A DNA stretch of 64,000 bases from Pseudomonadota bacterium (lineage in GTDB: Bacteria > Pseudomonadota > Gammaproteobacteria > Burkholderiales > Burkholderiaceae_C), in contig JAFEDY010000019.1 of the NCBI GenBank assembly GCA_018241405.1, positions 1,709 through 65,708 of the forward strand. The letters are read 5' to 3'. Numbering within the stretch: position 1 is the first letter of the stretch; each line of letters opens with the position of its first letter. Both the position numbers and the translations under genes were made by a program. Positions 37,962 through 41,038 of this stretch are shown here, in pieces. The notes under the pieces are model-generated. The model was not told where the DNA came from, made no database searches, and saw only the letters and a list, made by a program, of their open reading frames with translations.

Positions 37962-38843
37962 ATGCTCATGGGCCTAGCCGCCAACCGCCTGCACCACCAG
38001 ACCGAAGACGCCGCGCTGTTTGTCCTGCTGCGCGCCTGCGAGTCCGGCATGCGCGAGCTCCACCTCGGCCTGCATGCCGTGGGCCGCACTTTTGATGCCA
38101 TTTCTGCCGCCGGCATGCTGCAGGGCTACGCGCCGCTGCTGCGCTACCCCTATGGGCGCGATGGCGGTCTGATGAAGCTGGTGGCCGAGGTGGTGGGCAT
38201 GCCGGGCGAGGGCCGTACGCTTGACGGCGCCATCTACCTCATCGACCCGGTGGACCCTTCGTCCATCTTCCCGGAGGCGCTGGCGCTCAAGCGCCAGTGC
38301 GTGATCCACGGCAAGCCCTTTTTGTCCACCGTGGCCAGTGCGCGCGACTGGGTGGAGATGGAGCGCATGCACGCTGGCCTGCAGCCGGATCGCCATGCCG
38401 ATCGTTTCCATGACTACGGTGCGCAGACCCTGGCGCTGATCGCGCACGACGCCATGAAGACCACCATGCTGGACTTTGCCGCGCGCAACTTCGATCTGCT
38501 GTCGCGCTTTGGCCGGCGCGTGGCCACCGGCACCACCGGCCAGCGCCTGAACGAGCTGGCGTTGAGCCGCGGCTGGCCCGCCGACCGGCCCTGGGTGGAT
38601 CGCTACAACAGCGGCCCGCTGGGCGGCGACGCGCAGATCGCCGACCTGGTGCTGGAGCGCCGCTGCCAGCGCGCCATCTTCTTCGAGGACCCGCATGTGG
38701 CGCGCCAGCACGAGGCCGACATCCAGCTGCTGGAGCGCGCCGTGGCCACCGCCACGCATGACGCCGTGTGCGCCACCTCGCCCCGGGTGGCGCAGCGCTG
38801 GTGTGATGCGGCGCTGCTGCGTGGCCAGCGCGCCGCGCGGTGA
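37962..38843 (+). CDS. mgsA: Methylglyoxal synthase, tandem-domain form
   Basis: 293-residue protein in which the C-terminal half (about 150-293) is a complete methylglyoxal synthase, converting dihydroxyacetone phosphate to methylglyoxal: ALIAHDAMKTTMLDFA, ATGTTGQRLNEL and SGPLGGDAQIADLV. The N-terminal half follows the same fold order in degraded form (LGLHAVGRTFDAI, YPYGRDGGLMKLVAEV, IDPVDPSSIFPEALALKRQC) and has lost the AHD and TGTTG residues, so it is a non-catalytic duplicate. E. coli MgsA has one domain of 152 residues. AAGGA precedes the start. It overlaps pbpC (TGATG). Confidence 0.88.
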   Translation: MLMGLAANRLHHQTEDAALFVLLRACESGMRELHLGLHAVGRTFDAISAAGMLQGYAPLLRYPYGRDGGLMKLVAEVVGMPGEGRTLDGAIYLIDPVDPSSIFPEALALKRQCVIHGKPFLSTVASARDWVEMERMHAGLQPDRHADRFHDYGAQTLALIAHDAMKTTMLDFAARNFDLLSRFGRRVATGTTGQRLNELALSRGWPADRPWVDRYNSGPLGGDAQIADLVLERRCQRAIFFEDPHVARQHEADIQLLERAVATATHDAVCATSPRVAQRWCDAALLRGQRAAR

Positions 38844-41038
38844 TGCGCCGGGCGGCCGTCGCCCTCTGCCTGGCCCTGGCGGCCCTGCGCGCCTGGGCGC
38901 TGCCCGGCTTTGACGCGGTGCGCGCGGACTTCCGCTCGTCCGAGACCCTGGTGCTCTCGCGCGAAGGCGAGGTGATCCAGCGCCTGCGCACCGACGCCCG
39001 GGTGCGCCGCGGCCAGTGGCTGCAGCTTGCCGATGTGTCGCCCGCGCTGCGCCAGGCGCTGGTGCTCAGCGAAGACCGGCATTTCTACGAGCACAGCGGC
39101 GTGGACTGGGCCGCCGTGTCTGCCGCGGCCTGGGCCAACCTGTGGAACCAGCGCACGCGCGGGGCTTCGACCATCACCATGCAGCTGGCGGGCCTGCTCG
39201 ACGAGGACTGGCGCGCAAGCGGCAGCGGGCGCACGGTCACGCAGAAGCTGGGCCAGGCCGTGGCCGCGCAGCGGCTGGAGCGGCAATGGCGCAAGGACCA
39301 GATCCTGGAGGCCTACCTGAACCTCGTGCCGTTTCGTGGCGAGTTGGTGGGCCTGGACGCGCTGTCGCGCACCCTGTTCGGCAAGGCCGCACATGGCCTG
39401 GACGCACGCGAGGCCGCCGTGGCCGCGGCCCTGGTGCGCGCGCCCAACGCCCGGCCGGCCCTGGTGGCGCGGCGCGCCTGCGGCGTGCTGCGCGAGATGC
39501 ATATGCCCGCTGACTGCGATGCGCTCGACCTGTTCACCGCCGCCGCCCTGCAGCGCCGCGCCTATGACGCCAGCGAGGGCATCGCCCCGCACTTTGCGCG
39601 CCAGCTGCTGCGCCAGCGCGCCGCGCGCCTGGAGGGCGGCGCGCCCCAGCGCCTGCGCTCCACGCTCAGCGCGCCGCTGCAGCGCGTGGCGCTGGATACA
39701 CTCACCCGCCACCTGCGCGAGCTGCACGGGCGCAATGTGGAAGACGCGGCCCTGGTGGTGCTGGACAACGCCACGGGCGAGGTGCTGGCCTGGGTGGGCT
39801 CCTCCGGCGACCTGAGCCGTGCCGCCGAGGTGGACGCGGTGCTCGCCCCGCGCCAGCCCGGCTCCACGCTCAAGTCCTTCCTGTACGCGCAGGCGATTGC
39901 CGAGCGGCGCCTGACGGCAGCCTCGCTCATCGACGACTCGCCCGCACAGCTCGCCACGGCGGGGGGCCTGTACATCCCGCAGAACTACGACCGGCGCTTC
40001 AAGGGCTGGGTGTCGGTGCGCCAGGCCCTCGCGGCTTCGCTCAACGTGCCGGCCGTGCGCACCCTGGTCATGGTGTCGCCCGATGCCTTCTTCCACCAGC
40101 TCAAGCGCCTGGGCCTGCCGCTGCTTGAGTCGGGCGGCTACTACGGCTACAGCCTGGCGCTGGGCAGCAGCGAGCTGCCGCTTTTGCAGCTGACCAACGC
40201 CTACCGGGCGCTTGCCAACGGCGGGCGCCTGAGCCCCGTGGCGTATGCGGCCGCTCTGCCCGGCGCGCGCCCCGCGTTCACGCAGGCGCTGGATGCGGGC
40301 GCGGCCTTCATCGTCGGCGACATGCTGTCGGACGCCAACGCGCGCGTGCCCACCTTTGGCGGCGACAGCGTGCTGAACACGCGCTTCTGGAGCGCCGTCA
40401 AGACCGGCACCAGCAAGGACATGCGCGACAACTGGGCCCTGGGCTGGTCGGCGCGCTACACCGTGGGCGTGTGGATGGGCAACGCCAGCGGCAGTCCCAT
40501 GCACGACGTCAGCGGCATCAGCGGCGCCGCGCCCATCTGGGCCGAGGTCATGACCTGGCTGCACCGCGCCAATCCCAGCCGGGCGCCGCAGCCGCCGGCC
40601 GGCGTGGTGCGCGAGCGGGTTGTGTTCGCCGACGCACCCGAGAGCGCGCGTGATGAATGGTTCTTGCGCGGCACGCAGCAGTCGGTTTTTGCTATTAATA
40701 GTGAAGCTTTATACGCTTATCCTGATAGCGCTGGAGGCCAAAAACACTTCAAGAAAACCGCGCCGGCGCAGGACTCGGCAGCGCGCATCGTGGCGCCGGC
40801 GCCCGGCAGCGTGATTGCGCTCGATCCCGACATTCCGCCTGCGCACCAGCGCCTGCAGCTGCAGGCCACGGGGGCCGCGCCGGGGCTGCGCTGGTTTATC
40901 GACGGTACGCAGGCCGGCCAGGGGCAGCGGCTGGCCTGGCTGCCCTGGCCCGGACGCCACCGGCTGGAGCTGCGCGACGCACGCGGCCGGGTGCTGGACC
41001 AGCTGCAGTTCGAGGTGCGCGGCGCGGGCGTGCGCTGA
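38843..41038 (+). CDS. pbpC: Penicillin-binding protein 1C
   Basis: 731-residue bifunctional peptidoglycan synthase. After a signal-anchor (1-20) comes the GT51 glycosyltransferase (about 45-215) with SEDRHFYEHSGVDW and RGASTITMQLAGLL, then a transpeptidase domain with the active-site SxxK in QPGSTLKSFLYAQ and KTGTSKD, and a C-terminal BiPBP_C domain (about 645-731), as expected of PBP1C. PbpC is usually encoded next to an alpha-2-macroglobulin; here that gene lies upstream at 18010-23961. ATG at 38843 or GTG at 38840 may start it. A dispersed repeat sits in frame at about 614-636, between the transpeptidase and C-terminal domains. Confidence 0.95.
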   Translation: MRRAAVALCLALAALRAWALPGFDAVRADFRSSETLVLSREGEVIQRLRTDARVRRGQWLQLADVSPALRQALVLSEDRHFYEHSGVDWAAVSAAAWANLWNQRTRGASTITMQLAGLLDEDWRASGSGRTVTQKLGQAVAAQRLERQWRKDQILEAYLNLVPFRGELVGLDALSRTLFGKAAHGLDAREAAVAAALVRAPNARPALVARRACGVLREMHMPADCDALDLFTAAALQRRAYDASEGIAPHFARQLLRQRAARLEGGAPQRLRSTLSAPLQRVALDTLTRHLRELHGRNVEDAALVVLDNATGEVLAWVGSSGDLSRAAEVDAVLAPRQPGSTLKSFLYAQAIAERRLTAASLIDDSPAQLATAGGLYIPQNYDRRFKGWVSVRQALAASLNVPAVRTLVMVSPDAFFHQLKRLGLPLLESGGYYGYSLALGSSELPLLQLTNAYRALANGGRLSPVAYAAALPGARPAFTQALDAGAAFIVGDMLSDANARVPTFGGDSVLNTRFWSAVKTGTSKDMRDNWALGWSARYTVGVWMGNASGSPMHDVSGISGAAPIWAEVMTWLHRANPSRAPQPPAGVVRERVVFADAPESARDEWFLRGTQQSVFAINSEALYAYPDSAGGQKHFKKTAPAQDSAARIVAPAPGSVIALDPDIPPAHQRLQLQATGAAPGLRWFIDGTQAGQGQRLAWLPWPGRHRLELRDARGRVLDQLQFEVRGAGVR
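40685..40750 (+). repeat. Dispersed Comamonadaceae-type repeat, copy 4 (inside pbpC)
   Basis: A conspicuously A/T-rich island (TTTTTGCTATTAATAGTGAA) leads into CTGATAGCGCTGGAGGCC and AAAAAC, matching the distal half of the repeat seen between genes. It is translated in frame as an interdomain linker. The base composition differs sharply from the surrounding gene. Confidence 0.7.

Follow-up and report, generated by a model that had tools for sequence, protein, structure and literature searches.

A two-domain methylglyoxal synthase with a complete C-terminal half and a remodelled, putatively regulatory N-terminal half

Results

The window analysed here, a 64,000-nucleotide stretch of DNA from a Pseudomonadota bacterium of the order Burkholderiales, carries the gene of a two-domain methylglyoxal synthase (MGS), in which a complete MGS domain (C half) is preceded by a degenerate domain of the same fold (N half) (Table 1). 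The preliminary description of this DNA had read the gene as a tandem MGS with a degenerate N half and a complete C half. The tandem is supported by the full-length AlphaFold2 model, Foldseek and hhalign, and the completeness of the C half is borne out by its family match and by the catalytic residues in place; the outcome named in advance as speaking against the tandem, that modelling would give the N half some unrelated fold, was not seen, the full chain being MGS-ordered. We propose, as an evenly balanced judgement, that the gene is the organism's MGS, with a catalytic C half and an N half that would act in cis as a ligand-binding regulator. In either a controlling or a scaffolding capacity, the N half probably serves the C half.

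Table 1. Position of the gene, its two halves and the pocket motifs in the window.
Feature	Residues	Position (nt)	Strand	Basis
Two-domain MGS, 293 aa		37962..38840 (stop to 38843)	+	ORF, family match, AlphaFold2 model
N half, degenerate MGS-fold domain	1-150	37962..38411	+	profile comparison, relatives, AlphaFold2, Foldseek
ANRLHH, at AHDxxK place (E. coli His19/Asp20/Lys23)	7-12	37980..37997	+	hand-set register
VGRT, at TGTT place; Thr43 (Thr48 equivalent) kept in 33/33	40-43	38079..38090	+	alignment
RYPYGRD, at SGPxGGD place (Ser65 to Asp71)	61-67	38142..38162	+	alignment
DPVDPSSIFPEALALKRQC, N-half signature, aligning with DP...H98..D101...R107 of MGS	95-113	38244..38300	+	alignment
C half, complete MGS domain	153-289	38418..38828	+	VIA structure match, family match, PDB matches
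AHD (His19, Asp20)	161-163	38442..38450	+	sequence, alignment
TGTTG phosphate-binding loop	189-193	38526..38540	+	sequence, alignment
SGPLGGD; Asp223 equivalent to the catalytic base Asp71	217-223	38610..38630	+	sequence, alignment
DPHVARQHEAD (Asp91, His98, Asp101)	243-253	38688..38720	+	sequence, alignment

Gene and locus

The ORF opens with an ATG at nt 37962 and closes with a TGA at nt 38841–38843, and is the single copy of the MGS gene in the source genome, G000 (3.72 Mb, 71 contigs). On its 3′ side it adjoins pbpC, the start of which overlaps the MGS stop codon (TGATG, nt 38841–38845), suggesting, in the window's lineage, a translational coupling of MGS with this cell-wall enzyme. A DUF3079 gene on the opposite strand and a PLP-dependent enzyme are found on the 5′ side. 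A pbpC relative was present in the flanks of just 11 of 80 MGS loci, and no gene neighbour conserved across genera emerged from the comparison of 24 loci, with the MGS frame and the frames overlying it set aside; repeat neighbours were confined to subsets, mainly glutamate synthase genes in some Lysobacterales. The neighbourhood was therefore rejected as functional evidence. A Pho box or similar upstream regulatory motif was also rejected, since 12 upstream stretches of ~160 bases had no block in common other than around the start codon.

Elsewhere in the same genome, glyoxalase I (one match over the cut-off) and glyoxalase II (two matches over the cut-off) were detected, indicating that methylglyoxal can be removed. 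A glyoxalase I match of lower score (76 bits, under the cut-off) immediately precedes a glyoxalase II gene (G000:C29:87289-88500).

The C half

The NCBIfam model NF003559 (methylglyoxal synthase, cut-off 84 bits) was matched with 97.4 bits by the whole protein and with 86.2 bits by the C half alone, the best stretch being residues 155–278; three of the 21 two-domain genomes miss this cut-off. The C half stayed under the cut-offs of TIGR00160 (78.5 of 146.9 bits) and Pfam MGS (16.5 of 24.1 bits). A phmmer search against the PDB retrieved 11 distinct sequences, all of them methylglyoxal synthases (best E 6.9e-19) and all aligning to the C half, one starting at residue 138. The MGS fold was found in the C half of the full-length model, which matched 8u2v_B with Z 17.4 and rmsd 2.0 over 124 aligned residues, and 1b93 with Z 16.2 (both VIA).

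According to the available text of PMC7843640, the catalytic and phosphate-binding residues of MGS are the base Asp71, His19, His98, Lys23, the TGTTG loop and Ser65-Gly66. The whole set is present in the C half as His162, Asp163, Lys166, Thr189–Gly193, Ser217, Gly218, Asp223 and His250, the correspondence between window positions and E. coli numbers having been assigned by us. Of 17 positions examined, Asp243 and Asp253 included, 16 were invariant in all 33 non-redundant members, and at the Gly49 equivalent G was found in 31 and S in two. The C half also carries a family-specific segment with the invariant residues G204, W205, P206 and W211. Judging from its family match and catalytic residues, the C half would be a working enzyme, converting dihydroxyacetone phosphate (DHAP) to methylglyoxal and phosphate.

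Homology and fold of the N half

Taken alone, the N half of the window protein matched NF003559 with E 0.015 (residues 37–138) and had no match in Pfam, so that from this one protein a duplication would be just suggestive. In 10 of the 21 two-domain genomes, the window's not among them, the N half matches NF003559 separately, with E from 6.4e-6 to 1.9e-3. A profile built on an alignment of 99 N halves (in which one gene occurs twice, as L125 and L135) was compared by hhalign with 30 one-domain MGS, these being the top scorers of the NF003559 phylum search and a sample that leans to one MGS kind, and gave a score of 41.7 with probability 87.5, against 19.4 at most for 30 column-shuffled controls. 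Weak matches of this profile also came from six further genomes (E 1.8e-5 to 7.7e-5), and the three of these places that were compared with NF003559 matches were each an MGS gene. No match of the N half to any other family, carbamoyl-phosphate synthetase (CPS) included, was found in Pfam or NCBIfam.

The AlphaFold2 model of the full chain (45 sequences; pLDDT 86.6, pTM 0.87) shows two alpha/beta domains in a row, with strands and helices following the MGS order in both halves, and the model of residues 1–149 alone (39 sequences) was middling (pLDDT 62.9, pTM 0.59). With the N half alone, the first 15 Foldseek rows were all MGS, the best at E 5.1e-3 and none below E 0.001, with TM-scores of 0.39–0.46 by model length, and VIA reached Z 7.4 at most, barely more than the 6.7 of the unrelated RNase J rows. 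The non-MGS folds retrieved for the N half (RNase J, helicases and others, VIA Z 5.3–6.7) were not accepted as relatives.

The profile comparison, the sequences of the relatives and the full-length model agree that the N half is a true but remote MGS homologue, and both sequence homology and fold place it in the MGS superfamily. A recent in-frame doubling of the C half is unlikely, because in the profile comparison the N halves scored higher against one-domain MGS (41.7) than against their own C halves (23.0, probability 7); as the origin of the N half, an old doubling and a fusion cannot be told apart.

The pocket of the N half

Pocket letters of the N half were counted in the 33 non-redundant members, in a register set by hand from alignments. 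At the equivalents of His19, Asp20 and Lys23, which are the least sure because hhalign puts residues 12–16, not 8–12, on the AHDxxK stretch, the N half has N (N8; 32, with S in one), R (25; Q 5, K 3) and H (27; Q 5, R 1), respectively. In the TGTTG place, the Thr45 equivalent is V in 30 members (V, I or L in 33/33), that of Thr47 is R in 32/33 (R42) and that of Thr48 is T in 33/33 (T43). The Ser65 equivalent is R in 32 (R61; R or G in 33/33), that of Gly66 is Y in 26 and F in six, and that of Gly70 is R in 31/33 (R66). At the Asp71 equivalent E was counted in 20 members, D in eight and other letters in five (acid in 28/33), and at the Asp101 equivalent E in 32 (E105) and D in one (acid in 33/33). 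The Asp91 (D95) and Arg107 (R111) equivalents are D and R in 33/33, with Asp91-Pro92 kept, and the His98 equivalent is I in 21, V in seven, T in four and L in one. These pocket-equivalent positions (N8, R42, T43, R61, R66, D95, E105 and R111) are conserved with changed letters. The conservation of the pocket positions (0.865) is a little above that of N-half positions drawn at random, 397 of 10000 draws reaching this value, which is a weak signal.

In none of the 33 members does the N half hold the catalytic residue set of active MGS: equivalents of AHD, of most of TGTTG, of Ser65-Gly66 and of His98 are lacking, and arginines stand at phosphate-binding positions. The earlier statement that the N half is without the catalytic AHD/TGTTG residues is right in that these are mostly replaced, but it is slightly too strong, the Thr48, Asp91 and Arg107 equivalents being retained together with acids near Asp71 and Asp101. 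From the alignment, the pocket appears remodelled rather than erased. We infer that the N half no longer performs the MGS reaction; because acids are left at the Asp71-like and Asp101-like positions, loss of all chemistry is not certain.

Conservation and selection

Among 81 close relatives, whose selection by exact peptide patterns favours conserved ones, 61 of 150 positions were invariant in the N half and 61 of 143 in the C half. In the 33 members, thinned to <85% identity, the mean share of the commonest residue was 0.779 for the N half and 0.788 for the C half. The dN/dS of the window gene ranged from 0.064 to 0.178 for the N half in all eight comparisons with relatives, and from 0.121 to 0.249 for the C half against seven. 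The N half is under purifying selection and no decaying relic, it is conserved about like the C half, and it does something; its conservation and purifying selection fit a working non-catalytic domain.

Distribution and phylogeny

The nearest named relatives are Comamonadaceae (Acidovorax sp. MR-S7 and Comamonadaceae bacterium CD01), plus two Proteobacteria MAGs, at 89–90% identity. The same two-domain architecture was present in 80 of 80 kept relatives, and a two-domain protein of 45% identity (L127) exists. In 299 genomes sampled throughout the phylum, NF003559 had matches in 60, eight with the two-domain form and the remaining 52 scoring 130–235 bits. The whole protein was matched in 11 of 274 genomes of the class, in five of them over both halves. 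The N profile matched strongly in 16 of the 349 genomes searched at order level and in 11 of the 398 searched at phylum level, the two sets overlapping; no free-standing N domain was found among them, the matches sitting in open frames of 292–478 aa in which the C half was checked except for G966, G890 and G970. In each of the 21 two-domain genomes NF003559 matched nothing outside the two-domain ORF (E up to 0.01), and this single MGS match per genome indicates that the two-domain protein replaces MgsA. The two-domain MGS proteins form an established family, with members in Comamonadaceae, Lysobacterales and other Burkholderiales.

When 38 proteins were placed in a tree, Comamonadaceae formed one group (100/100) that joins the Lysobacterales (fork 99/98), and three further families of the window's order (f232, f237 and f5) branch outside both. 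The closer relationship of Comamonadaceae to Lysobacterales than to other Burkholderiales families hints at a transfer of the gene between orders. In this tree the very divergent L127 lies on a long branch and its place is unsure.

Three other loci deserve mention. L127 (G489:C22:29000-37000, frame from 3245, + strand) has a 662-aa frame that continues for ~220 residues past the C half; nothing in Pfam or NCBIfam matches this tail, which may represent an additional domain or result from a frame that simply stays open. In L126 (G238:C23:41000-47000, − strand) an ordinary-looking MGS domain (residues 269–390) ends a 398-aa frame, the earlier part of which looks by eye like an alpha/beta barrel, so this is possibly another MGS fusion. 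The MGS of L038 (record Pantoea sp. 18069) groups with Comamonadaceae, beside Delftia (support 92/83 in the 38-protein tree), which probably reflects a wrong name or a mixture in the record, or else a transfer of the gene.

Discussion

The product, methylglyoxal, is toxic, and tight switching of the synthase with the levels of phosphate and triose-phosphate is needed. In the working that we propose, methylglyoxal would be made by the C half, and the N half would be an ancient MGS-fold copy without MGS catalysis that has kept an arginine-richer, remodelled pocket. Packed in cis on the C half, it would most likely bind phosphate or a phosphorylated metabolite and so set the activity of the C half, in the manner of the allosteric MGS-like domain of CPS; the oligomer might, as a guess, consist of three two-domain chains that mimic the hexamer. 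A fixed packing of both halves fits the pTM of the whole model. The regulatory reading, with its putative ligand binding by the N half and control over the C half, draws on the conserved basic remodelled pocket, the lasting fusion, the single copy and the CPS precedent.

By analogy, it is plausible, as the preliminary description had proposed, that the pseudo-enzyme N half senses phosphate or triose-phosphate and replaces the allostery of the hexamer. More tentatively, the N half may be a dedicated metabolite sensor derived from an active MGS, its phosphate pocket having been rebuilt with the arginines R42, R61 and R66 so as to respond to phosphate or to some larger phosphorylated signal, with three two-domain chains in place of the symmetric hexamer. 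If this were true, the catalytic and regulatory sites, which are one in the one-domain enzyme, would be split between two half-chains.

The main rival to a regulatory N half is a structural one, in which the N half takes the place of an adjacent hexamer subunit, giving a pseudo-dimer, is needed for folding or assembly, and binds no effector. We regard it as possible though rather doubtful, and it accounts for nearly as much: the fold homology and the confident joint packing of the halves in the model agree with it, the N half was never found outside long frames in the genomes searched, and the C-half segment with G204, W205, P206 and W211 might be a docking surface. However, the most conserved N-half stretch (DPVDPSSxFPEAxALKRQC), as well as T43, R42 and R61, would lie, on the alignment, at pocket-side loops and not be evenly spread.

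The strongly conserved polar residues of the pocket, acids and arginines included, could also be those of an enzyme with a different specificity that passes a metabolite to the C half or receives one from it. This is unlikely, as the N half matches no other family in Pfam or NCBIfam and the compared loci offer no conserved neighbour suggesting a pathway. The weak family score of the N half in this protein alone would agree with a recent degenerate duplicate or an assembly artefact having no role, an explanation hardly credible given the architecture shared by all the kept relatives and by the 45%-identical L127, and the low dN/dS.

A fusion of enzyme and pseudo-enzyme, as favoured here with the regulatory reading, would make the catalytic and regulatory sites changeable separately, which a symmetric one-domain hexamer does not allow. 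The annotation is also corrected: such proteins would otherwise just be called methylglyoxal synthase, a name that leaves half of the chain out of account.

Comparison with known systems

MgsA of E. coli is a hexamer with phosphate allostery. With the one-domain enzymes of E. coli (1b93/1egh), B. subtilis (6f2c) and Thermus (1wo8/2xw6), the C half shares fold, family match and catalytic residues. Unlike in these enzymes, a second, altered MGS domain comes first here, the protein has 293 aa instead of about 130–150 aa, the C-terminus is short and an insertion is present around residues 202–212. Hexameric models have been built on 1WO8 and 1EGH. In open-access papers, for which titles and abstract beginnings were covered, most papers on MGS structure and allostery being subscription-only, no description of a two-domain MGS was found.

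The next structural neighbours after MGS itself are the MGS-like domains of CPS (E. coli CarB, human CPS1 L4), which, like the N half, have the MGS fold without MGS chemistry and are joined to an enzyme. In human CPS1, according to PMC4655335, the allosteric domain L4 is folded like methylglyoxal synthase, and N-acetylglutamate binds to it. In CPS, however, the MGS-like domain is C-terminal and regulates an unrelated enzyme, whereas here the N half precedes a true MGS. Tandem universal stress proteins (UspE) likewise have two alpha/beta domains of the same fold per chain, and were retrieved by VIA with Z 7.2–7.8 over 218–222 aligned residues at rmsd > 5; they belong to another fold family, and probably share with the two-domain MGS the arrangement only.
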